This document shows positions 2,381 through 44,612 of a stretch of DNA of 44,612 nucleotides, one piece after another; the first letter of the stretch is position 1, and each line of letters starts with the position of its first letter. The notes below the pieces were generated by a model. The model saw only the letters and a program-made list of their open reading frames with translations, did no database searches and was not told the origin of the DNA. The position numbers and the translations under genes were made by a program. Origin of the DNA: a virus; the IMG/VR virus record IMGVR_UViG_3300000651_000001, positions 1 through 44,612 of that record. One strand, given 5' to 3'.

Positions 2381-2430
2381 CCGGGGGGATCTGCTCCATG
2401 AAAGACATCAGGCCACCCGATGCCCTTCAT

Positions 2431-2450
2431 GCAGCAGACTTGGCTGCTGC
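2431..2450. other. Perfect hairpin between two accessory genes
   Basis: GCAGCAG and CTGCTGC form a perfect 7-bp stem around a 6-base loop. It lies in the gap between the stop at 2466 and the start at 2380. No U-run follows on the minus strand, so it is not a standard terminator; an attenuator or mRNA-stabilising stem is possible. Confidence 0.35.
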
Positions 2451-2465
2451 ATTGCTGCTTTTATA

Positions 2466-2606
2466 TCAGAAGCACCTTTTCTTCCTGCAGATGGGCATAG
2501 GGTCTGACCCATCTGAAGGCATGCTTTTGGGGTGGATGGTTTCTGCTATGCCATAGACGGTCATGGCCAGCAGGCAAGCAATCACAACTGTTCTGACTTT
2601 CAGCAT
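2466..2606 (-). CDS. Small membrane-anchored or secreted peptide (46 aa)
   Basis: A 46-residue product from ATG 2606 with a strong AAAGGAG site about 8 bases upstream. The N terminus MLKVRTVVIACLLAMTVYG is a positively charged, hydrophobic signal or anchor; the remainder is short, polar and ends ICRKKRCF. The sequence VIAC resembles a lipobox, but the hydrophobic run before it is very short. It lies in a run of four small membrane proteins, so a lysis role such as an outer-membrane spanin is conceivable but unproven. Confidence 0.6.
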   Translation of the reverse strand: MLKVRTVVIACLLAMTVYGIAETIHPKSMPSDGSDPMPICRKKRCF

Positions 2607-3588: not shown

Positions 3589-3886
3589 GTTCCTGCTCCT
3601 TGGCTGGCACCAGTCGGATGGTGCCTTGGGTTTTGTTATAGATCAGAAGGCTGGTGCCGATGGGGCCAAGTTCCAGCAGCTTGCTGGTGGCAATGTCAAT
3701 GATGGCAATTCCCGGCTTGCCACTGACATGCCTGTCACCATCCTTGTCCAGTTCAATGAGCAGTTCACCGGGCAGGATCTGGGCTGTGAACTTCATGCCC
3801 TTCTTGAAGCCAGCTTCCTTCAGCACTGCACCCTGCAGCCACACTCTGGGCTTGCCTCTGTTTGATCCAATCTTGGTCAGCTTCAT
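3572..3886 (-). CDS. AbrB/SymE-like two-part protein (104 aa)
   Basis: ATG 3886 follows the upstream stop by one base, with AGGAG about 10 bases before it; a longer frame from 4030 overlaps the neighbour fully and is rejected. The first half (MKLTKIGSNRGKPRVWLQG, AGFKKGMKFTAQI, GELLIELD) has the R-x-W-L-x-G...AGF-x-x-G pattern of SymE/AbrB-type swapped-hairpin proteins. The second half (GIAIIDIATSKLLELG...TQGTIRLVPA) could be a second, divergent half-domain. Such proteins bind DNA or RNA. The assignment rests on motif recognition alone. Confidence 0.6.
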   Translation of the reverse strand: MKLTKIGSNRGKPRVWLQGAVLKEAGFKKGMKFTAQILPGELLIELDKDGDRHVSGKPGIAIIDIATSKLLELGPIGTSLLIYNKTQGTIRLVPAKEQERGKAA

Positions 3887-9169: not shown

Positions 9170-10054
9170 TCAAGTGCTGGCAACAGGCATTGGTGGTTCT
9201 TGTTTTGTGCCCATGTAGGCAGCAGGCCTTGACCATTTTTTGTTCACTGCCTTCCACTCTGGGCTGTAGATCTTGCTGGGCATGTCAGCCACTGGTGGCT
9301 GATACAGTTGGGAAAATGGCATGAAGCCCAAGGCGAAAACTTTTTCAATTCTGCTTTCAGCTTCAGCCAGGTTTTCGGTGTCGAAACCAATCATTGTGTA
9401 GCAGCGAAGTTTTTTCTTGGGGATGCCATCCAGCAGTGGCCTGATGGCTTCCAGTCGCTGCAGGCTCTTGTGGTCATCACAGGCAAACCACAGTTCCCCA
9501 ATCTTGATGGAGTCAAACAGCTGCCTGTGCCATGGCTTGAAGTAATCTTTGTCAAGACCACCATTGAAAAAAATGTTGCGGTTCTGTTCTCTCAACATCT
9601 GGAAGACTGCATAGATGTGCTTTTCACTGCAGGCCAGCAGATTGTTGTCTTGAACAATCCAGCCCGGTGCAAAATTGGGGAATTCCCTTAGAGCACCTTC
9701 TGATGCTGGCACCTTGCACCAGCCACATCTTTTGGGGCATCCCCTGCTGGTGATTGTGCAGCCCTGCTTCAAATATCTGCCCGGAATGAATTCCCCACCG
9801 GGGTCATCGTAGGCAGGCCCACCCACCATCACATTCCTGTAGTACATCCCCCATGACTCTGCCAATTGCTGTGCCCTTTTCCTGTGCCATGTGAATGTCA
9901 CACTGATGTGAACTGGTGTGTTCTCTGTGCCCGGTCTGAAGAATGGGGGGAAGCCCACAAAGGCCCATTCATCCACTGGGGTCCAGTGGTTCCTTTCAGG
10001 AAATACCCTGATCAGATCCACTCCGGGCGAGTCAATTTGAATCAGCTGCTGCAT
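9170..10054 (-). CDS. Radical SAM protein
   Basis: 294 residues. TITSRGCPKRCGWCKVP gives the CX3CX2C iron-sulfur motif at C106, C110 and C113. The segment before it (VHISVTFTWHRKRAQQLAESW, MVGGPAYDDPGGEFIPGRYL) resembles the B12-like or Rossmann lead-in of B12-binding-type radical SAM enzymes, and IVQDNNLLACSEKHIYAVF and FNGGLDKDYF follow in the barrel. I have seen relatives of this sequence type in other phages without an assigned substrate. It sits between a Lys-rich protein and the RusA/methyltransferase genes, so a nucleic-acid target is plausible but unproven. Confidence 0.88.
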   Translation of the reverse strand: MQQLIQIDSPGVDLIRVFPERNHWTPVDEWAFVGFPPFFRPGTENTPVHISVTFTWHRKRAQQLAESWGMYYRNVMVGGPAYDDPGGEFIPGRYLKQGCTITSRGCPKRCGWCKVPASEGALREFPNFAPGWIVQDNNLLACSEKHIYAVFQMLREQNRNIFFNGGLDKDYFKPWHRQLFDSIKIGELWFACDDHKSLQRLEAIRPLLDGIPKKKLRCYTMIGFDTENLAEAESRIEKVFALGFMPFSQLYQPPVADMPSKIYSPEWKAVNKKWSRPAAYMGTKQEPPMPVAST

Positions 10055-14793: not shown

Positions 14794-16218
14794 CTAACTG
14801 ACCTTGCGAAACTTGCCAGGATTTTGCACATTTTTCACAGGGGCGCGTTGCTTCTTCTGTCGCCCTAACTGCAATTGCAGCTGGGCAATCTGTTCCTTCA
14901 GTGCTCTGACATCATCCAGTGATTCTTCTTGCACTGCTTCATCTTCAGCCAGCACAGCTGAAGCCTTCAGCAGTTCATGCTTCCGGGCATGGCCATAACG
15001 TTCTTTCATGTCTGGCCTGATCCAGCCTGCTTGGTGTTCTGCAGTCCGTTCACCAAGTCTGGAATCTTCCAGCAGTCGAGTGATGGCATGGTGCCTGAAA
15101 TCATACGTTCTGAAGTTCTCAATTCCTGCCATGGCCAGAATGCCCTTCATGGCAGTCTTATAGTGGATCTGTGGCCTGCAAGGATTGATGATCAGATCCT
15201 TGGGGTGTCCGGGCATCAGGTAGTGATTGGGCTTGGTGCAGCCCAGCTTCTTGGCCCGTTCCACCAGTCGCTGCATGGCCCAGAGTGCATCCCCATTCAG
15301 GTAGATGGTCCGTGCCCTTGTTCTTCTCTTGGCACCCCGTCTGGGAATTTCAAACCTTGGATTCTTGTCATTCAGGTAGATGTCACCCAGCTGCAGGCTA
15401 AGAAGTTCAGCAGGGCCTGCCGTGGTCTTCATGGAAATCAGGCCACAGCATGCAGCCACTTCAAAGCCTGATCTTTCTGTGGCCAGTTCACGGAACAGTG
15501 CCACCAGCCTTGTGGCTTCTTCCGGTGTCAATGCCCTTCCGGGCAGTTTCACGTTTCTGGGTCTGGGTAGTTTCTTGTAGAAGTCAGACATGTCCTTCCA
15601 GCAGCCTGCCTTCTTCAGCATCATCCGGAGCAGACCACATTCATGATTGATGCCTGCCCACCTTGCATCAGTGTCACCGTTCTGACGGTGCTTCCTGTAT
15701 TGGCAGATGTGGTCAAAGGTGATGGACTTCACCTTGGTGTCCTTGAAGTAGTTCCGCAGTGGCCTCAGATAACGTTCGTAGTTGGTGATGCTGTTGGGTG
15801 CCAGCCCTTGGGTGTGCTGACTGAACCAATAATCAGCAGCAGCGTTGAAGGGCATGGCTGCAAAATTCGGTGTTGGTGCCAAAGTGTTTTCCGTTTCTAC
15901 TGGCAGCACCGGATCTGTGGAAGGAACTTCTTCCTGCTTCTGCTCTGACTTTTTATCCCCATGATCCGGTGATGACAGATTATGGGTTTTATCCTGCAGT
16001 GACAATTCTACCTGTTCATTACGATTTTTCAAGGATGGCCTTCCTTTCACACACTGGTTCCGGGGGAACTTGCACAGATCCCAGATCCAGCCCCTGTGAC
16101 GAAAGGCAGGCCCTGAAGACGCTGGCCAGTCCGCAATTGCTTTCAGTTGCAGATTGTGATCAGTGGTGGATGAAAGGTTCTTCTGCCAGATGCCCCGCGT
16201 GACGGAACAGGGGATCAT
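14794..16218 (-). CDS. int: Tyrosine-type integrase
   Basis: 474 residues in the longest frame from ATG 16218; the first 120 or so are low-complexity and the true start may be later. FNAAADYWFSQHTQGLAPNSITNYERYLRPL is the SAM-like core-binding domain. In the catalytic domain, box II is YDFRHHAITRLL (R375, with Tyr in place of the usual His), the next position is GWI (W399 for His), and the nucleophile is Y408 in KERYGH. Box I reads TTAGPAELLSL, without the expected Arg. A coiled coil (LKEQIAQLQLQLG) ends the protein. It should catalyse site-specific integration and implies a temperate lifestyle. Confidence 0.85.
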   Translation of the reverse strand: MIPCSVTRGIWQKNLSSTTDHNLQLKAIADWPASSGPAFRHRGWIWDLCKFPRNQCVKGRPSLKNRNEQVELSLQDKTHNLSSPDHGDKKSEQKQEEVPSTDPVLPVETENTLAPTPNFAAMPFNAAADYWFSQHTQGLAPNSITNYERYLRPLRNYFKDTKVKSITFDHICQYRKHRQNGDTDARWAGINHECGLLRMMLKKAGCWKDMSDFYKKLPRPRNVKLPGRALTPEEATRLVALFRELATERSGFEVAACCGLISMKTTAGPAELLSLQLGDIYLNDKNPRFEIPRRGAKRRTRARTIYLNGDALWAMQRLVERAKKLGCTKPNHYLMPGHPKDLIINPCRPQIHYKTAMKGILAMAGIENFRTYDFRHHAITRLLEDSRLGERTAEHQAGWIRPDMKERYGHARKHELLKASAVLAEDEAVQEESLDDVRALKEQIAQLQLQLGRQKKQRAPVKNVQNPGKFRKVS

Positions 16219-19917: not shown

Positions 19918-20586
19918 TCACAGGAAACTGTTCCGATGGCAGGCATACATCCATTCTTCTGAGTAGTTGCCAGTGCCCTGACTCAGATGGGTGGTGGCAG
20001 ATCCTTGGAACAGGTGCCTGCCATGCTTCTGGAATCTGGGATCATGGAACAGTGGGATGCCTGCATAGGCCAGAATGGTGCCATAGCCAAGATCATCAGC
20101 CCAGTGTGGGAAGGCTGTGAAGTTACTTTGCAGGATGGCATGCATGGCCTTGGCACTTAGCCAGATCCCCGCACCACCAGAGGCATACTCTGCAAGGCCC
20201 TTGCCATCGAATTCAATTGGCACCAAGTGGGCCTGCTCACCACCACAGGTCCGGTGCCCTGCATAGTCATGGGCCAGCAGCTGCCCATCCAGCAGCCTTG
20301 ACAGATTGCAGTATGTGTCCCTGTAGCAGAGGAAAATGAAATCAAAGCCCAGCAGCAGACCATGCTTGAACAGTTCCCTGCACTTTTCATATAGGTGGTT
20401 GTAATCATCCGGGGCATTCATCACCAGTTCATCATCTTTGGGATCTTTGAAGCCCACACCTGCAAAGAAGACATGGGGAATGCCTTGGCCTTTCAGCCAT
20501 GTGTCCCTGATGGCCTGATGGGTGTGTCTGTCTGCATTGCAGCTGCAGATGGCAATCAGCACACTAGGTGATTTCAACTGACCCAT
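19918..20586 (-). CDS. GT31-like glycosyltransferase with degenerate DxD
   Basis: 222 residues from ATG 20586, chosen because its N terminus then aligns with the neighbouring enzyme. VLIAICSCNADRHTHQAIRD, APDDYNHLYEKCRELFKHG, YASGGAGIWLSAKAMHAIL and HWADDLGYGTILAYAGIPLF match the galactosyltransferase (GT31-like) half of the gene upstream, so the two are paralogues. Where the neighbour has FKSDDDSY, this one has FLCYRDTY (about residues 85-92), losing two of three metal-binding Asp. It may be inactive, use another metal site, or partner the larger enzyme. Confidence 0.75.
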   Translation of the reverse strand: MGQLKSPSVLIAICSCNADRHTHQAIRDTWLKGQGIPHVFFAGVGFKDPKDDELVMNAPDDYNHLYEKCRELFKHGLLLGFDFIFLCYRDTYCNLSRLLDGQLLAHDYAGHRTCGGEQAHLVPIEFDGKGLAEYASGGAGIWLSAKAMHAILQSNFTAFPHWADDLGYGTILAYAGIPLFHDPRFQKHGRHLFQGSATTHLSQGTGNYSEEWMYACHRNSFL

Positions 20587-22018
20587 CCTGCAGCACCCAC
20601 TTGTCAATGCCGCGCCGTTTCAGTGCAAGCCTGCCAGGTTGCCGTGCCCGGTGTCGGAATTGGGGATACTCTGGATGCATCTGGGAAAAGTTGAATGGAA
20701 TTTCCCTGATGCTGACATCCTGCACCACACACACCTTGAAGCCCAGCTGGAAGGCATCGAAGAAGAAAGCACCATGTTCCCCACCACCAATCTTGATGTC
20801 ATCATCCCAGTGCAGTCTGCTCGGGCCAAGGCACTCCCTTCTGATCAGGGAATAGTTCACTGTCAGATCACAGGTCAGGTAGGTGATGTTATTGAAGGTC
20901 CGCATGTCATGGTATTGGAAGTGCTCCTTCACAGTGCTGCCAGTGATTTCCAGAATGCTTTCATAGGGCTTGTGATCCACCCTGCCTGAAGCAATGTGCA
21001 TGCTGGGATCATGCTTCAGCACAGCCACCAGCTTTTCAATTCCGGATCTGACACTGGGGTGGCTGAAGTCAAAGTCATCCGAACCAATCAGCACATAGGG
21101 CCTGTCACAGTACTTGATGCCTTCATTGGCCTTGGCACCAAAGCCCGAATCAAAAGGAAGCCAAGAACAGGCATGGCCCAGTTCTCTCAGTTCTGCATAC
21201 AGCCTGATCTTCTGGTGGCATTCATAGCCATCATCGACAATCACCAGCTTCACTTCAGGCATGGTCTTCCTGATGCCATCCAGACATCTGAACAGGTATT
21301 CATCCCGTAAAAAGGTTTTGATCAGGATGCAGACATCAGACAGGGAACCTTGTGGCAGCTGTCGCACAGGCAGGGCTTCCTTTCCGGTCATCCAGTCCAG
21401 ATGCACCTGCACCATCTGGGCTGGGGAAAACTCGCACACAGCAATCAGGGAATTGTTCACCCTTGGTGGTTCATTGCAGGATCTGGCACTGACATCAGAA
21501 GAAAGCACACCAAACCTTGGATCATGCACAGGCCTGATGCCAACTTCCAGCAGTGTGTTAGCCACCATCCTGTCTTCAGCCTGATCCCCATTCAGCTTGC
21601 AGTCAGCAATCACAGCAGCAGCCTTGGCACTCAGCCAGTATCCAAAGCCAGAACAATAAGGAGCAGGGAAAGGTCCGGATGGACCCCGGACCCTGCCAGT
21701 GTAGTCATGCTGCTGGAAGCCTGAAGCCATCAGCCTTGCTGGCACCACATAGGAATCATCATCAGACTTGAAGATGAAATCATAATGATGTGCTCTGGCC
21801 CATTGGCACATGGCCTGCATTTTCTGTGGCAGGCTTTGATAGTCATCACCCACATCCAAAATCACTTCATCCTGGTGGTCAGCTGTGCCCCTGCCAAGGA
21901 AGAATTTCAGATCCGCGCCGTTCACATCCTTTCCCCAAGTTGCCCTGACAGCTGTGGCCCTGTCCCTGAATCTGTGACAGGTAAGGACAGCAATCAGAAC
22001 TTTCAAGTGATCACACAC
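20564..22018 (-). CDS. Bifunctional glycosyltransferase (GT31-like plus GT2-like)
   Basis: 484 residues from GTG 22018. Residues 1-175 are GT31-like: KVLIAVLTCHRFRDRATAVR, GDDYQSLPQKM, FIFKSDDDSYVV (DDD at 86-88), GFGYWLSAKAAAV and AEDRMVANTL. Residues 225-484 are GT2-like: CILIKTFLRDEYLFRCLDGI, VIVDDG (262-263), LPFDSGFGAKANEGI, IGSDDFDF (314-315) and WDDDIKIGGGEHGAFF. The second half resembles beta-1,4-GalNAc transferases. Two fused enzymes could add successive sugars to one acceptor. Position after the receptor-binding genes suggests modification of tail proteins or of the host surface; DNA sugar modification is an alternative. Confidence 0.85.
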   Translation of the reverse strand: MCDHLKVLIAVLTCHRFRDRATAVRATWGKDVNGADLKFFLGRGTADHQDEVILDVGDDYQSLPQKMQAMCQWARAHHYDFIFKSDDDSYVVPARLMASGFQQHDYTGRVRGPSGPFPAPYCSGFGYWLSAKAAAVIADCKLNGDQAEDRMVANTLLEVGIRPVHDPRFGVLSSDVSARSCNEPPRVNNSLIAVCEFSPAQMVQVHLDWMTGKEALPVRQLPQGSLSDVCILIKTFLRDEYLFRCLDGIRKTMPEVKLVIVDDGYECHQKIRLYAELRELGHACSWLPFDSGFGAKANEGIKYCDRPYVLIGSDDFDFSHPSVRSGIEKLVAVLKHDPSMHIASGRVDHKPYESILEITGSTVKEHFQYHDMRTFNNITYLTCDLTVNYSLIRRECLGPSRLHWDDDIKIGGGEHGAFFFDAFQLGFKVCVVQDVSIREIPFNFSQMHPEYPQFRHRARQPGRLALKRRGIDKWVLQDGSVEIT

Positions 22019-25020: not shown

Positions 25021-26835
25021 TTATCCCAGTGCATGGCCCGGTGTGGTGTCAGAGTACTGGCCCGAATCATTGCAGAGATACATGTAATGATCTTTTTCAT
25101 AAGTGGTGCCCAGCGTGAAATCAGACACACCGTTGGGTGCAATCACATACTGACCAATAGACTGCAGGTAGGTGGCATCCAGCAACTTCACAGTGATCAG
25201 GCACTTTTCAAAGTCCCATTTCCTGTCCAGCACTTCAAACAGCTTGGCAGTGATGCCTATCACTCCAGCCACCCGGTCAGGCACCTTGTCACTGGTGACT
25301 GCTACTAGGTCGCCAGGTTCAAGCACTGCTGCAGTCCAGTGGGCAGTCACTTCTTCAAATTGCAGGGCCTTCAGCCCGTAGCGAAGGAAGATCATCTGGG
25401 CAGTGGCAGAGGCAACTGAAAAGCCTTGGAAGCCTGCCCTTAGCCCTTGCGACTCGATGACCTGAGCACCGAATAATCCATACTTGCTTTGGCTGGTGGT
25501 GTAGTCCCTGATCAGTTCACTGCCCCACTTGTCATCTGCAGTCTTGTCAAAGCGAAAGGTGATCTGGTTCACCAGATCTGCCTGTGTGGCTTCGGGCACG
25601 TCTTCCATGTTGCCATGATCGAAAGACAGATTGGGTGCAGTGACATTCAGTGGGGTGGCAATGGCATATTGCCCCGGTCCATTCACATTGCTTTCATAGC
25701 CCGGAATGCCTGTGGGATCTGTGAAGGGCCAGCCCGGACCCAGACTGACAGTGCCACTGGTATAGCTGATGCTTACCAGAGTGCCAGCTGTGACTGATGC
25801 AGTGGCTGGAGCACTGCTGCTGGCAGTGGTGAAGGGGAAGTCTGCATTCACTCCGGATGTGTTCCAAGGTCTGCACAGCGCCGACACAGCCAGTGCACTA
25901 GCATTCACCAGCAGGTTCCATCCCCCCAGATTGTCAGGCCAGAAGTGGTCATTCACACCAAAGCTGATCTTGGTGGCACCGGGTGGCACTTGCAGTGTCA
26001 GGGTCTGACCCAGTGTGATGCCCACAGAAAATGGGGAACCAATGATGACCCCGGCTGTGTCAGTAAAGCAGGCCAGCAGGCATCCACCCTGCACTGTCAG
26101 TCTCAGATCCCTTCTGAAGAAGTTGAAATCCAGCTGGCCCTTGTTATTGGTCCAGATGTAACCACCCAGTGGCTTCATGATTTCGTTTTCAATGAAATCC
26201 TTGGCCACTGGTGCCGAGTCCAGATCAAAGACAAACTGCACCCCGGTGAAAAGGCCCTGTTCGTACATGCCCAGCTTGGCTTTGTTATAGGCAGTGGAAG
26301 GCAGGCCCAGTTCCGTTTCGAGCAGGGCAGAAAGGATTTCCAAGGGATGACCATTCAGTGTTCTGTGATGATCAGTGTCAGTGGGCCTGCCATCATCAGC
26401 TTCTGTGTAGACAGCCTTCTGCAGCACTGCGGAATTGTCCACACAGATGAACTGGTATTCCTTGTTTTGATTGGCAGATGCTACGGAATCAATCTGCCCG
26501 GTGAACAGCAGGGCAAAATCTGCCTGACTCATGCCCACAAAGCCAGTCTTGATGGTGATGGCCTTGCCTTCAAAGGTGAAGGTGGGAAACTCTGCAGTGA
26601 TGCTGCCAGCATTGTCTTGGACATTGAAAACAAACTGGCCCAGATCTGCACCACCATCCAGATCACTGACACTGATGTCATTGTCTTCAATGGAAGTGAT
26701 CCAGTCATATTGCCCACTCACCCCGGTGGGATAGTTGGTGAAGGCTCGGGTGTAGGTGTCAATCTGGATCAGAAAGATGGGGTGCTTCCGAAGCACGGCA
26801 TTGGCAGTCTGGAAGGCAGTGCTGGTGCTGATCAT
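25021..26835 (-). CDS. Baseplate hub-like tail protein with lectin insertion (604 aa)
   Basis: The N-terminal part (ISVSDLDGGADLGQFVFNVQ, GKAITIKTGFVGMSQADFA, FTGQIDSVASANQNKEYQFI) and the C-terminal part (FRFDKTADDKWGSELIRDYT, AHWTAAVLEPGDLVAVTSDK, VLDRKWDFEKCLITVKLLDA) read as the two halves of a gp27-like tail hub or tip protein. Between them, at about residues 250-320, LTLQVPPGATKISFGVNDHF and WPDNLGGWNLLVN look like a LecA/PA-IL-type carbohydrate-binding domain. The start is linked to the upstream gene by ATGA. It would cap the tail tube and contact host glycans. Confidence 0.75.
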   Translation of the reverse strand: MISTSTAFQTANAVLRKHPIFLIQIDTYTRAFTNYPTGVSGQYDWITSIEDNDISVSDLDGGADLGQFVFNVQDNAGSITAEFPTFTFEGKAITIKTGFVGMSQADFALLFTGQIDSVASANQNKEYQFICVDNSAVLQKAVYTEADDGRPTDTDHHRTLNGHPLEILSALLETELGLPSTAYNKAKLGMYEQGLFTGVQFVFDLDSAPVAKDFIENEIMKPLGGYIWTNNKGQLDFNFFRRDLRLTVQGGCLLACFTDTAGVIIGSPFSVGITLGQTLTLQVPPGATKISFGVNDHFWPDNLGGWNLLVNASALAVSALCRPWNTSGVNADFPFTTASSSAPATASVTAGTLVSISYTSGTVSLGPGWPFTDPTGIPGYESNVNGPGQYAIATPLNVTAPNLSFDHGNMEDVPEATQADLVNQITFRFDKTADDKWGSELIRDYTTSQSKYGLFGAQVIESQGLRAGFQGFSVASATAQMIFLRYGLKALQFEEVTAHWTAAVLEPGDLVAVTSDKVPDRVAGVIGITAKLFEVLDRKWDFEKCLITVKLLDATYLQSIGQYVIAPNGVSDFTLGTTYEKDHYMYLCNDSGQYSDTTPGHALG

Positions 26836-27239
26836 GAACCTGTCTGATCTGCTCCCACCACTTTTCTCAGCTTCAGCTTGAACCTTGAAATTCCGTGGAA
26901 GTTTCTGCTGGGTGCCCAGCTGGAATCATCAAGGGTGTAGGTGGTGTAGTGGGCAATGGTCTTGTCAGGGAAATAATTGAACAGACCACCAGCCAGAGCG
27001 AAGCGCATGAAGTCAGTCCATGCAGGCATGTCTGTGACTGGAACGAAGTCCAGCTGCACCGGAAGGAATTCATCAGTTCTAGTCCACACCGATTGTTTCA
27101 AACCGGACACAGAAATCGAGTCTTCACGCTGGGCTGTCAGATCCGGGGCACCGGACTTCATCACTGGTGGAAATGTGAAGTTTAGAACTACGGTGCCACT
27201 GCCAGGATTGTATTCAATTTTGGGAACTGGGTACGACAT
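26832..27239 (-). CDS. Distal tail or baseplate protein (135 aa)
   Basis: MSYPVPKIEYNPGSGTVVLN, then FTFPPVMKSGAPDLTAQRED, LPVQLDFVPVTDMPAWTDFM and HYTTYTLDDSSWAPSRNFHG. A small beta-rich protein between tape measure and hub is the usual place of a distal tail or hub-adaptor protein. It is coupled to the hub gene by an ATGA overlap. Assignment is mostly by position. Confidence 0.6.
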   Translation of the reverse strand: MSYPVPKIEYNPGSGTVVLNFTFPPVMKSGAPDLTAQREDSISVSGLKQSVWTRTDEFLPVQLDFVPVTDMPAWTDFMRFALAGGLFNYFPDKTIAHYTTYTLDDSSWAPSRNFHGISRFKLKLRKVVGADQTGS

Positions 27240-27258
27240 TCGGGTTTAGACTCGACAC

Positions 27259-27359
27259 TGGCAGGAAGGAAATCAGTCCACCCCTACCCTTGATTCTGAC
27301 TGTAGGGGCACTGATTTGTGATGATGCACTGCAGCCACTGCAGTGTTTCCTTCCTGCCA
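27259..27359. ncRNA. Structured intergenic element, three-way-junction fold
   Basis: A 14-bp perfect outer stem pairs TGGCAGGAAGGAAA (27259-27272) with TTTCCTTCCTGCCA (27346-27359). Inside are two further stems: 27273-27277 with 27310-27314 continued by CCCCTAC (27281-27287) with GTAGGGG (27302-27308), and CACTGCAG (27327-27334) with CTGCAGTG (27338-27345). It begins 5 bases after the tape-measure stop. There is no U-tract on the minus strand, so it looks like an RNA-processing, stabilising or attenuating structure rather than an ordinary terminator. Confidence 0.6.
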
Positions 27360-27363
27360 CTGC

Positions 27364-30300
27364 TCATGACCTTCTGGTGACCCGGAAGGCATCAGTGGCC
27401 AGATTTCTTGCCATGCCTTTCTTCACCAGCCTGTTCTGTTTTCTCAGCAGTGCTCCGTGGTCGATCAGGTCACCCTTGATGTGGTAGTGAGTCTGAAGCA
27501 TGGGCACTTCCCCAAGGATCTGCTGGATGATGGTGCCCAGATCCGGTGGAGCAATGGCACCAAACCTTGTGTCCAGTGTGTCAGCCAGTGCATCAGCGAT
27601 GGCACCCATGGCCCTGCTGTCACTCAGGGGCAGGATGGCTTCCCTTGCTCCTGCAGCCTTGGTCAGAGAATCACCAATCACTGCCAGTGTGGGGGAAGAC
27701 ACCAGCCCACCAGTGGCAAGGTGGGTGACATTCGGACCACCAGAAGAACCACTGCCAGCTGTGGTGGCTGATGTCATGGGTGGCAGGCCCGGACCCGGTG
27801 AAGGATTGCCACCACCACCACTGCCACCGGGCACAGGGATCATGGAACCACCAATGCTGCAGGCAGCTGCCACACCAGTCCACTTCAGTGCAGCTGCAAG
27901 GTGCATGCCTGCAAACTCACCTTTGAGGAATGGATCTGCAAGGCAGGAAAAATACTCAGCCCATTCATGCAGGGCCTTGACTGTGGCAATGCCAGCTTCA
28001 GCAGCCAGAAAACTTTTCAGAAACGTGGTCATGGCAGCAGCCATGCCCTGACTGCCCATCACAGCAGCCTGCACGGATTGCCCAATGGCCTGAGCAGTCA
28101 GAGTCATCAGAGCCTTGATGGCTGTGCCTGACTTCAGTGACCCACTGATCAGCATGGTGAAATAATCATTCCAAGACTTGGTGGCCTGCCGCAGCATGGT
28201 GTGGTCCAGCTTGGTAATCTTGCTGTCAGCATCTGCCTTGATGGTTTCAATTCTGCCTTCTGTTCCATAGACAGCTGCTTCCGCTTCTGCCAGTCTTCGC
28301 TTCAGGTCATTCAGTTCATCTTCACTCAGCAGGCCAGAAGCAATTCCCAATTCCAGCCTTGCTCTCAGTTCCAGCACCTTTTCATTCTGCTGGGCAATCA
28401 GGGAATTCCAATACTGCAGCCTGTCTGCTTCTTCCTGCTGGTAGACGGTCTTCAGATCTTCTCGGGCTTGCTTCTCACTCAGCACACCCATGTCAGCCAG
28501 AAACTGGATCTGTTCTTCCTGCTTGCTGACACTGATCCCTTCACGGACATCATTCAGCTGGGCCTGTGACTGCTTCAGCTTGTCCAGTGCTTCTGCCAGT
28601 TTGTATGCTGACTTGACCTGCTTTTCCCACTCCTTTTCCACATGCAGCTGCAGCATGTGATCCCAGTCCACCATCACCTTGATGATGGCATCATGGTGTG
28701 CCCTGCCTGCTGCACTCAGGTCATCCAGTGCCTTGGCAGCATTCTCCATTTCCTGCTTGGTGGCCTGCAGCTGCAGCTGGTGGGCTTTGTGCAGTTGCCC
28801 CGATGCTGTGTAGATCTGGATTTCAGTCCGGATCAGGTTTTCTTCTTCTGCCCTGATCCCATCGGTGGCCACTTTTTCTGCCAGCAGCCAGTCTGCTGCA
28901 TCAATCCTGTGACTCAGGTAAGCAGCATGGGCCTCTGATGCTTCAAACTTGTAGGCAGCAATTCTGGCATCACTCTGGTTCTTGGCATCTTCAATCTGGG
29001 CATCTGCAATGGCCTTATTGGCTGTCAGCTGGGCCTGCAGCTGTCGGGCTGCATTCAGGGTGGTGTCCGTGGTCAGCTTGGCCTGTGCAGCCTGTGCCTG
29101 CTGGTGGTCATTGATGTTGCTGAAGGTCTGCACCACCACCCGGTCATAATCCAGCTGTGCAGCTGCAGCATCATTGGCTGCTTTCTTCTGGGCTTCAGCC
29201 CACTGGGTGGCATTGATCTTGTCAGCATTGAAGGCTGCTTCCTGCTGGGTCTTCAGCAATTCAATCTGGGCCAGCCTTTGTGACAGTTCTTCCTGTGCTT
29301 CCCTGACTGCGATGGAAGCACCTTTGCCAGCCTTGGCTGCTTCTTTCGCGTCTTCAATTTCCTTGGTGGTGTTCAGCTGCTCCTTCAGCTGCTCATTGAT
29401 GTGCATCAGGGCTTCCAGCTGATTCAGCCAGGATTGCACTGCCGCATCATTCAGCTTCTTGTCTTCAGCAGACATTTCCCCTGCCTGCTGCCTGTAGCGA
29501 AGAATTCTTTCCTGCAGTTCTGTGATGGCCTTGCTGGTGACTTCCAGCTGGGCAGTGAAGACCTTGGTGGGATCATCGGTGCCATCACCCTTGAAGGCTT
29601 TGATGGTGGCATCCCTGACTTCTTTCAGCTTCAGGATGTATTCATCCAGCCCCTGCTTGGCAGCTGCATTGATAGGATTGAAGATGGGGCTGGCCCCAGC
29701 CTTGGTCATCAGATCCTGCACTTCCTTGATCTGACCCTTGATGGACTCGAATGTGTCCCTGCCAGTCTCCTGCAGGTGCTGCATTCGGTAATCCATTGCA
29801 GCCAGTGGCCCGTTGGTCATTTCCAGCAGCTGGGCATGGGCTTCAATGGTTTTGTTCCTCTGATCCACCAAGGCTTCAGTGGCACTCAGCCTGTAATCGG
29901 CCCAGCCTTGCTGCAGTTCTCGCTGCTTCTCCCTGTATTCAATGATCTTGTTAGTGACTTCCACCAGCAGGCCAATGAAGGCAATGATGGCAGCAGCAGG
30001 GAAAGCAGTTTCCAGAGCAGCACTGACACCGGGCAATTCACTGATGACTTTTTTCAGTTCTCTGGGGATGCCAATGCCGATGGATTCAGAAAGCAGATCC
30101 ACTGCACCACGGGATTCATGGAAGCCCTTGATCATGTCTTGGGTGGGCTTGCTGACTGTTCCACCCATCTTCTGAATACTTCTGGTGACATCTTCCAGCT
30201 GCTTCTGCAATGCCTGTGTGTTCTCGCCCAGTGCTGCCCGGTAGGCAATTTCCTTCTGAAGCACTGCAGCTGTGGCCTGCAGCAGTGTGCCTTTGGCTGT

Positions 30301-31291: not shown

Positions 31292-31323
31292 AAAAAAGTA
31301 GGGCAGCACTTGGGATGCTGCCC
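31292..31323 (-). terminator. Strong terminator after major tail gene
   Basis: GGGCAGCA (31301-31308) pairs with TGCTGCCC (31316-31323) around a 7-base loop, followed on the minus strand by TACTTTTTTGG. It would uncouple high tail-tube expression from the chaperone and tape-measure genes. Confidence 0.92.
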
Positions 31324-31361
31324 TGCTAGTGGCTGAACCTGCTGTCTGGGTCAGTGTTGGT

Positions 31362-38159: not shown

Positions 38160-38194
38160 AAAAAGGGGAAGCAGGAAAAGTTTCCCTGCTTCCC
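38160..38194 (-). terminator. Strong rho-independent terminator
   Basis: A perfect 10-bp stem, GGGAAGCAGG/CCTGCTTCCC (38166-38175 with 38185-38194), has a 9-base loop and is followed on the minus strand by CTTTTTAT. It ends the capsid and proline-rich gene transcript, and the next ATG overlaps its end. Confidence 0.9.
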
Positions 38195-38646: not shown

Positions 38647-38682
38647 GAATGTGCTCCTTCAATTAGTGACGGTCAGTGAAAA

Positions 38683-38710
38683 GTCAGGGGCACAGAAGCA
38701 CCTGTGCCCC
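38683..38710 (-). terminator. Hairpin after capsid gene
   Basis: GGGGCACAG and CTGTGCCCC form a 9-bp perfect stem (38687-38710) around a 6-base loop. On the minus strand it is followed by TGACTTTTC, a weak U-run, so it may terminate partially or stabilise the capsid mRNA. Confidence 0.6.
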
Positions 38711-38723
38711 ACTTAGAAGGTGG

Positions 38724-40596: not shown

Positions 40597-41867
40597 GGCT
40601 GTGCTCCTGCTGGTGGTGGCGTCTGGGGTGGGGCTTGTCCTGGTGGAAGTGGTTTGCTGATGTTGGTGGCTTTGCCCAGCTGATCAATCGGAGTCTGGTT
40701 GACCTGCACAGTCAGTTCATCTGCTCCATCCATCTTGGGCAGATTGAATTTCGGCCTGACTTCATTTCTGGTGGCAATGCCACTATTCACCATGGTGCTG
40801 GCATTCTGGGTCTGGGCTGTGGTGTCGCCCCTCTGCAGTTCTTCCAGATCGAATTCACACACAATGTCAGGTTCTGCTGCCAGCAATGCTTTCCGGATGG
40901 CTGCTTCAAACCTTCTGCACTGGGGTGACACTGTGTGCTTGGTGAAGCTGATGTCAAATTGTTCAGCACTGGCATAGGTGGCAGTTTTATCTGACTGCCC
41001 TATCAGGTTCAGGGGCACACCATAGATGGCCCCAGCAATTTCTTCCACAGTGAATCGCATGGTTTCGATGTACTGGGCTTCTTCCGGTGCCACTGAAATG
41101 GGCACATATTCACCTGATTCCCACAGCACTCCAGTCTTCCCAGCATTGGCTGGCCCACCATGAATGCCCTGCCAGTCATTTCTCAGCCTGTTATTGGCTT
41201 CTTCATTGGCTGGCCTTTTGCCTTTGAATTTCAGATAGCCACTGGGCCTGCCCATGTTCTGCAGAAAGTAAGTGCCATAATCCTGTGCAGCACTGGCATG
41301 CTTGATGGCATAACTTCTGATTGGTGAGTCACCCCACCAGCCACCATTGCTGGACATGTTCTTCACATGCAGGATTTCCTTGGGTGAGAATTCCTGCAGC
41401 TTGCCACCAAAGGAATAGTTGTAAGTCAGCTGATCCTTCAGGTAGTCCCATCGGGGCACCACAAAGTCAGGATTCAGGAAGTTCAGTGCCACCACCCTGC
41501 CACCCAGTCTGGCAATGTAGGCATAGGCATTGCCCCAAAGGCAGAATGACTTTTCCATATTTTCGAAGAATTCAAAATTGGACAGGTATTCATTGGCAGC
41601 AACATTCACCAGTGGCCACAGCCAGTGATCCGGGGCCAGTTCCTTGTGGCCATCCTTGGCCACCCGGTAAACCCTGCAGGGCAGGCTTCCCATGGTCTGG
41701 CCTCTGACTCTCATGCAGCCATAAACGGTGGACAGCTGTTCTGCAGCGTAGGTGCCACCACTCAGGCCTTCCACCACACAGCTTGGCCATGGGCCAGCTG
41801 CACCCCATACTGGGAAGCCAGTGGCCTTTTCCAAAGCCCATCTGGCCACCTTCTGGATGGCATTCAC
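40593..41867 (-). CDS. Portal protein, HK97 family
   Basis: 424 residues. ALNFLNPDFVVPRWD, SPKEILHVKNMSSNGGWWGDSPI, AQDYGTYFLQNMGRPSGYLKFKG and FTVEEIAGAIYGVPLNLIGQSDKTATYASAEQFDISF form the standard portal core, and the C terminus is Pro-rich. Twelve copies make the DNA channel at one capsid vertex. It is coupled to both terminase and protease genes by ATGA overlaps. Confidence 0.95.
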   Translation of the reverse strand: MNAIQKVARWALEKATGFPVWGAAGPWPSCVVEGLSGGTYAAEQLSTVYGCMRVRGQTMGSLPCRVYRVAKDGHKELAPDHWLWPLVNVAANEYLSNFEFFENMEKSFCLWGNAYAYIARLGGRVVALNFLNPDFVVPRWDYLKDQLTYNYSFGGKLQEFSPKEILHVKNMSSNGGWWGDSPIRSYAIKHASAAQDYGTYFLQNMGRPSGYLKFKGKRPANEEANNRLRNDWQGIHGGPANAGKTGVLWESGEYVPISVAPEEAQYIETMRFTVEEIAGAIYGVPLNLIGQSDKTATYASAEQFDISFTKHTVSPQCRRFEAAIRKALLAAEPDIVCEFDLEELQRGDTTAQTQNASTMVNSGIATRNEVRPKFNLPKMDGADELTVQVNQTPIDQLGKATNISKPLPPGQAPPQTPPPAGAQP

Positions 41868-43483
41868 CAGCTGTCCACCTGTGCATCACCTGCAGGAACA
41901 GCAAGCATGGCCCTTGCCATGGCGTCTGCCATTGCAGTCAGTCCATCAATCCGGGCTGTGGTCTTTTGTCTTTCCGGTTTGGCAAACATCAGGCAATCAT
42001 TGTTTTCTCTGGTGGCACAGCAGCTGGCATTCCAGCGAAGAATGGGATGGCCACCATGGTGCAACTTGCCTGACACAATCAATTCAAGGATCTTTTTGCA
42101 AGGTTCGCTTAGTGTGGCATAGCCCTGTCTGATTTCCACGCATTCATAGCCTTCATCAATCAGCTGGGTGCTGAGCTGTCTGCTGTTCCATGGGTCCAGA
42201 CAGATTTCCTGCAGATCAAACAGCTGGGCACCCCACACCAGCCTTGCTTTCACATCCCGGTAGTCAATGACATTGCCTTCACACAGTTCAAGGAAGCCCA
42301 CTTCAGCCCATGTTCTGTAAGGCATGCCATCTTTCAGTTCTCGTTTCCTGATGCCAGCTTCGGGCAACCAGAAAAAAGGCAGGAAATCATAACTGTCATC
42401 ATCAGCTTCAAACAGAAAACCTACAGCAGACATGTCCGTGGTCATGGACAGATCCACACCAGCCCAGCACTTTCTGCCAAAGAAGCCAGCCAGGAAGTCA
42501 TGGTCATAGGTTCTGACTTCATCTTCCGGTGCCTTGGGCAGCAGTGGTCTGGCTTGCCATGGCTGTGCACAGGCATCCCATTGCTGCAGGTCAATGGCTC
42601 TGGACTCCTTTTCATCCCACAGGTTCAAGAAGTAGCGCCGGAAGGCCCTTTGTGCATCAGGATCTGACTGGGCTGCAGTGAATTTCTGTTTGATCTTGGC
42701 AATGTCAAGGAAGCCACCGTTCTGCTTCAGACTGGGGTTGGCCTTGATCCAAGTTTCTTCACTGCTCCAGTCATCTTCCGGATCTGCTGCATAGATTCTT
42801 CCGTAAAAGCTGTCATCGGTGATGATTCCCTGCTGCACTCGCTGGGTCTTCTCATGTAGTCGCCATGCCAGTGGACTTTCTTCCCTGACTCCAGCTGTGG
42901 TGATGGCAATGGTCAGGGCCTGCTTCCGTGAAATTCCCCCAAGGCTCAAAACATCAAAGTTTTCCAGCATCTTTCTGGTTTTCCATCGGTGTACTTCGTC
43001 TGCAACTGTCACAGATGGATTCACACCGTCTGTCAGGTCACCATCAGCAGCAATGGCAGCATAGAAACTGTTGGGATCAGATCTTTTTAAGATCCTGTAA
43101 GTGGATGGAAGAATTTTGAAGTATCGCTGCAGTTCCGGTGACAGCTTCACCATGGTGTTAGCAGCCCGGTAGACATTCAGAGCCTGCCTCTGGGCAGCTG
43201 CTGCACCGTACACTTGGGCACCCAGATTGGTGTCCAGATACAAGGCCAGCAGAATGATGCCTGCCACCATTTCAGTCTTTCCTGCTTTCTTGGGCACTTC
43301 CAGATAGGCCATTTCTGTTTGCAGGGTGCCATCATCCTTCAGCTGACCAAAGATGTGTCTGATGGCTTCCTTTTGCCATGGCGCCAGGATGAAGGGCTTT
43401 CCTGTCCACTGATCCTGTGTGTGCTTCAGGATCTTTTCAAAGAAGTTGACGGCAAACCTTGCCCGGTCCTTGTCAAAGCCCAC
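41864..43483 (-). CDS. terL: Terminase large subunit
   Basis: 539 residues from GTG 43483. The ATPase domain has PKKAGKTEMVAG (Walker A, about 64-71) and VTVADEVHRW (Walker B, about 158-165); the nuclease domain begins with the metal-binding Asp in AGVDLSMTTDMSA (about 341-353). It belongs to the Terminase_1-type family and drives DNA into the prohead and cuts it. It overlaps the portal gene by 4 bases. Confidence 0.96.
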   Translation of the reverse strand: MGFDKDRARFAVNFFEKILKHTQDQWTGKPFILAPWQKEAIRHIFGQLKDDGTLQTEMAYLEVPKKAGKTEMVAGIILLALYLDTNLGAQVYGAAAAQRQALNVYRAANTMVKLSPELQRYFKILPSTYRILKRSDPNSFYAAIAADGDLTDGVNPSVTVADEVHRWKTRKMLENFDVLSLGGISRKQALTIAITTAGVREESPLAWRLHEKTQRVQQGIITDDSFYGRIYAADPEDDWSSEETWIKANPSLKQNGGFLDIAKIKQKFTAAQSDPDAQRAFRRYFLNLWDEKESRAIDLQQWDACAQPWQARPLLPKAPEDEVRTYDHDFLAGFFGRKCWAGVDLSMTTDMSAVGFLFEADDDSYDFLPFFWLPEAGIRKRELKDGMPYRTWAEVGFLELCEGNVIDYRDVKARLVWGAQLFDLQEICLDPWNSRQLSTQLIDEGYECVEIRQGYATLSEPCKKILELIVSGKLHHGGHPILRWNASCCATRENNDCLMFAKPERQKTTARIDGLTAMADAMARAMLAVPAGDAQVDSW

Positions 43484-44391: not shown

Positions 44392-44612
44392 TGGATTCTT
44401 CCTTTTTCAGCTGTTTTCCCACTTTCCGATGCCCGATTTTGGCCATTTGGCCACTTTTCCCACTTTTTCAGGGCCTTTTTCGCCTTCTCAGCAGGCCCTG
44501 TGGGTGAAGGCCCTGCCTGCCCGATTGGCCAGCCTAGGGGCTGGGAAGTGCCCTGCTGACAGCCCTGATAACACTTCAAGTGCGGGTTTTCGAAGCGTTG
44601 GCGGTCCGCTTC
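44388..44612 (-). CDS. Junction-spanning hypothetical protein, C-terminal part
   Basis: This is the continuation of the gene that starts at 201 on the other side of the circular join. The unique part is 44388-44549, since 44550-44612 repeats bases 1-63. The residues here include LKCYQGCQQGTSQPLGWPIG and AEKAKKALKKWEKWPNGQNR, basic and Trp/Gly-rich, ending at a TGA that overlaps the next ATG. No family is recognised. Read in the contig alone it looks like a 63-codon frame from a TTG, which understates it. Confidence 0.5.
   Translation of the reverse strand, partial: EADRQRFENPHLKCYQGCQQGTSQPLGWPIGQAGPSPTGPAEKAKKALKKWEKWPNGQNRASESGKTAEKGRIQ
44418..44468. repeat. CCCACTTT repeats, right side of junction
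   Basis: CCCACTTTCC at 44418-44427, GCCACTTTTC at 44450-44459 and CCCACTTTTT at 44459-44468. They match the two copies at 100-149 across the circular join and lie about 360-400 bases before the small terminase start in the direction of transcription. Confidence 0.55.
44550..44612. repeat. Terminal overlap, right copy
   Basis: Exact copy of bases 1-63 (see the left copy). A circular map should keep only one of them. Confidence 0.93.

Follow-up and report, generated by a model that had tools for sequence, protein, structure and literature searches.

Phage T7 carries RNase III processing hairpins between genes at several junctions of its genome, and these have been mapped experimentally. In a REPIN, a REP is paired with an inverted copy of itself, and REPINs are repeated genome-wide. 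Small intergenic insertions that affect transcripts have been described in bacteria. The terminal inverted repeats (TIRs) of Correia elements are cleaved by RNase III when present in mRNA, and transcripts that carry ERIC insertions are changed in stability (PMC10969869, PMC2229807). Here we describe a palindromic element between two tail genes of a phage and compare it with these systems.

The window, that is, the whole stretch of DNA analysed, is the virus record IMGVR_UViG_3300000651_000001 (44,612 bases). The genome is probably complete, either circularly assembled or terminally redundant, because an identical 63-bp direct repeat was observed at both record ends (1-63 and 44550-44612). The large terminase, portal, major head protein and integrase were identified, indicating that this uncultured phage is a temperate HK97-like siphophage, and all identified genes lie on the - strand. 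The tape-measure gene is located transcriptionally upstream of the palindromic element, with the following features at the junction and elsewhere in the genome:

14794-16218, integrase (identified phage gene)
26832-27239, - strand, next tail gene, 135 aa, conserved in relatives
27240-27254, - strand, remainder of the inferred ancestral spacer between the element and the downstream ATG, 15 nt, CGAGTCTAAACCCGA
27257-27361, - strand, inferred palindromic insertion of ~105 bp, limits approximate, delimited from the stems (which span 27259-27359), shuffle tests and absence from relatives
27259-27272, - strand, 3' arm of the outer stem in the sense RNA, TTTCCTTCCTGCCA
27273-27314, - strand, hairpin 2, 5 bp (27273-27277/27310-27314) plus 7 bp (27281-27287/27302-27308)
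27327-27345, - strand, hairpin 1, CACTGCAG-TGG-CTGCAGTG, 8 bp (27327-27334/27338-27345) with a 3-nt loop
27346-27359, - strand, 5' arm of the outer stem in the sense RNA, TGGCAGGAAGGAAA
27364-30597, - strand, tape-measure gene, 1077 aa
41864-43483, large terminase (identified phage gene)

The spacer between the two tail genes (27240-27363, 124 nt) was read directly, and it is mostly filled by the perfect stems of 14, 5+7 and 8 bp given in the initial annotation. Two further remarks made there also held: the pairing starts near the tape-measure stop, the first paired base being base 5 past the stop codon on the sense (-) strand, and no U-run follows the outer stem. The outer stem pairs 27259-27272 with 27346-27359 over 14 perfect base pairs, and its arms can be extended to 27256-27272/27346-27362 (17 nt at 94%). 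Hairpin 1 adjoins the outer stem without a gap, and hairpin 2 contains an asymmetric internal loop and a 14-nt apical loop. No ORF longer than 65 aa overlaps the element, and no overlapping ORF showed evidence of coding. Some short sense-strand ORFs (27-48 aa) cross it, and these were dismissed as being without supporting evidence.

Of the gene labels proposed earlier, "tape measure" was confirmed by a match to phrog_2335 (tail length tape measure protein, E 6e-6) and by the relatives, as tape-measure homologues precede the same downstream gene in two of them (L002 and L003). The label "distal tail" for the downstream gene found no support, since neither PHROG nor Pfam gave any match for 26832-27239. 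The neighbouring protein (P0003) had no match among named phages. Elsewhere in the window, 20564-22018 (- strand), which adjoins the tail genes, matches Galactosyl_T and Glycos_transf_2, with one or two glycosyltransferase domains, and 9170-10054 (- strand) encodes a protein matching the phage radical SAM family phrog_9298 (E 2.6e-17).

Fold strength and search for other copies

The predicted minimum free energy (MFE) of the sense RNA was -58.1 kcal/mol, as opposed to -36.2 ± 3.8 for shuffled sequences (z -5.9). None of 1500 dinucleotide shuffles reached -58.1 (the best was -48.6), and a perfect arm longer than 11 bp appeared in none of 3000. The RNA of the + strand gave an MFE of -55.3 (z -6.3) in a slightly shifted stretch (27254-27377), and the single-stranded DNA fold had a z of -7.1. 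With z values of about -6 for RNA on both strands and -7 for DNA, the pairing is far beyond chance, in agreement with the initial annotation. The proposed three-way junction is both the predicted MFE structure and the centroid structure, so that as a highly significant predicted fold it stands. However, because the antisense strand and the DNA fold about as well, nothing singles out a function as RNA, and three relatives lack the element; support for a distinct RNA element is weak.

In a GC-corrected scan of the genome by 120-nt segments, the element came first for the + strand and fourth for the - strand; the sense-strand segments starting at 2401, 34981 and 701 scored as high as the element. 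At 2381-2480 (- strand), just upstream of the ORF at 2039-2380, there is a hairpin of ~23 bp with one mismatch, a 3-nt loop and no U-run. An inverted repeat at 712-758 has arms of 20 nt that are 90% complementary and enclose a 7-nt loop; it likewise lacks a clear U-tract. In the relative L003 (L183, contig IMGVR_UViG_3300048997_000259), stronger structure than that of the element was found at L183:1961-2100 and 3761-3880. The strong hairpins elsewhere in the genome and the stronger stretches in L003 show that the element is extreme in structure, not unique in kind. The initial annotation set the element apart from the simple terminators elsewhere in the genome; the real-looking terminators do carry the T-runs that it lacks, but comparable hairpins without clear U-runs stand at 2381-2480 and 712-758.

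Searches for other copies of the element yielded no homologous copy in named phages, plasmids, Rfam or the exact-arm scans of viral and species-representative sequences. MITEs occur in multiple copies in a genome, whereas this phage genome contains the element once and its exact arms matched nothing in one genome per species from 84,980 species; the host genome may carry further copies. blastn against plasmids and phages gave no match or chance matches of 22-29 nt. Rfam gave no match at the gathering threshold, hammerhead and pRNA included, and only chance matches at E up to 10 (E 0.69 and above). A paired-arm scan of 2.9 million viral contigs matched three contigs; like the other arm-pattern scans, it depends on arms that are nearly exact, so that diverged copies would escape it. 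Two of the three (L175 and L176) are one sequence in opposite orientation; they and the third (L186) were rejected as chance matches, lying inside ORFs and having different folds. In a single-arm scan of the viral contigs, no fetched locus among the matches listed had the second arm nearby.

The same junction in related phages

Three relatives share the gene pair, with an identity of about 47-56% in the neighbouring protein P0003, and searches using the downstream gene, the tape measure, the terminase and a P0003 alignment gave no phage closer than 56-58%. None of the three carries the element. The spacer is 18 nt in L002 (GCGAGTCTCGACTTTCTC), 2 nt in L124 and 0 nt in L003, so that the site is empty in these relatives, as would be expected for a MITE. 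The motif CGAGTCT is common to the L002 spacer and the remainder of the window's spacer (27240-27254) at nearly equal distance from the ATG, although this 7-nt match was spotted by eye and, in a region this divergent, was not recovered in the MAFFT alignment. Because the relatives have short spacers without the element and this motif is shared, the simplest reading of the sequences is a lineage-specific insertion of ~105 bp into a short ancestral spacer. Loss of the element in the relatives is possible instead, since the neighbouring protein is only 47-56% identical. Inspection of the flanks by eye revealed no clean target-site duplication, and the insertion limits are approximate, the relatives being distant.

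Possible origins and effects

Our tentative explanation (probability roughly 0.45) is that the element is a foldback insertion that is cotranscribed in the late operon and affects mRNA processing or stability between the two cistrons. A near-palindromic sequence of ~105 bp would have been gained in the short gap separating the tape-measure gene from the next gene, as the comparison with the three distant relatives suggests. Since the tail genes run in one direction with little space between them, the late mRNA probably includes the insert, and the transcript is predicted to fold into a branched hairpin five bases past the tape-measure stop. Without a U-tract, this hairpin would not by itself terminate transcription. 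The predicted outer stem and contiguous hairpin 1 together make about two turns of double-stranded RNA, and such an intercistronic site may be cut by RNase III or block exonucleases, by analogy with Correia/NEMIS and ERIC. A candidate RNase III processing or stability site is thus the most likely consequence by this analogy. As a spacer, the insert may in addition free translation of the downstream gene from coupling to that of the tape-measure gene: the downstream gene of L124 has its Shine-Dalgarno-like GAGGAG within the tape-measure end, whereas in the window no Shine-Dalgarno-like sequence precedes the downstream ATG, the 15 nt of CGAGTCTAAACCCGA included. Points against a foldback insertion are the single copy, with none other found, which leaves mobility putative, the lack of a clean target-site duplication and the possibility of loss in relatives only 47-56% identical.

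A serious rival, which we consider possible but on the unlikely side, is a neutral palindrome without selected function, which template switching in replication or the capture of a host repeat would have produced. Of the four phages compared, only this one has the element, and the stems are entirely Watson-Crick, which fits an inverted duplication at the DNA level; the terminators of the genome are likewise perfectly paired. Long-loop inverted repeats of at least 13 bp also occur elsewhere (at least 17, several of them redundant, in 1.8 Mb of viral DNA). However, it would take several events to build three coordinated palindromes within 105 bp in situ, and some effect on expression is likely when a tail operon receives an insertion. 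A conserved functional RNA with a three-way junction, serving as a cis-regulator or as a small RNA released from the operon, appears doubtful. The very stable branched fold, the 8-bp hairpin directly abutting the outer stem and the otherwise tight packing of the surrounding gene junctions are in its favor, as opposed to the chance-level Rfam matches, the lack of any homologue in the collections searched, the absence from three relatives and the equal folding of the antisense strand and the DNA. We regard as quite improbable a previously undescribed branched regulatory RNA of this uncultured lineage, one that would fix how strongly the tape-measure gene is expressed relative to the next tail gene. 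Nothing found marks the element as a new RNA class, and it is probably ordinary.

A role in terminating or attenuating transcription between these tail genes, perhaps in both directions or with help from Rho, is very unlikely because there is no U-tract and the genes continue in the same direction. An intrinsic terminator combines a GC-rich hairpin with a U-tract; here a strong hairpin does lie immediately past the stop codon and the pyrimidine-rich UUUCCUUCC follows hairpin 2 on the sense strand, yet no U-tract follows the outer stem. Moreover, the site was not called by the terminator scan, the real-looking terminators of this genome carry clear T-runs (31300-31324, 38166-38194 and within 38647-38723), and no promoter-like site was found on the - strand between the element and the same-direction tail genes downstream. 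The DNA fold (z -7.1) and the perfect inverted repeat of hairpin 1 would suit a site acting at the DNA level, such as an operator for a dimeric protein, a cruciform, or a recombination or packaging site. Such a role is extremely unlikely, as the element is far from the integrase (14794-16218) and the terminase (41864-43483) and its arm motif recurs in the phage genome no more than by chance.

The element is real, statistically striking, confined to this lineage among those compared, and probably ordinary. If the foldback insertion is functional, it would exemplify a small palindromic insertion that a phage tail operon has put to use in the processing or stability of its mRNA; if not, it would be an ordinary foldback insertion. 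The result serves mainly as a warning: between phage genes, even a highly significant fold of a single sequence is no proof of a conserved RNA element when homologues are lacking.

Comparison with known systems

In form the element is MITE- or ERIC-like, and its membership is putative: with 14-bp perfect arms, a length of ~105 bp and no transposase gene, it has the terminal inverted repeats and size (~100-200 bp) of a MITE. ERIC (127 bp) and RU-3 (103 bp) of enterobacteria are similar to it in size and intergenic position, and their transcripts fold into long stable stem-loops (PMC2229807, PMC10969869), as predicted for the element. They are multi-copy families, whereas the element is single and matched no plasmid or phage record, and ERIC has TA ends and target duplications in contrast to the element, which has no recognised ends. 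Correia/NEMIS of Neisseria, ~107-155 bp with long terminal inverted repeats, form double-stranded RNA that is cut by RNase III when cotranscribed (PMC10969869, PMC2229807). The element differs from them in being single, with no sequence relation shown, and its cleavage by RNase III is putative. REPINs (PMC3116915) are likewise an inverted pair of palindromes of ~100 bp, whereas the two inner hairpins of the element are unrelated in sequence. The T7 sites are several and experimentally mapped, as opposed to the single element known from its sequence; they share with it a strong hairpin placed in the spacer of a phage polycistronic mRNA.
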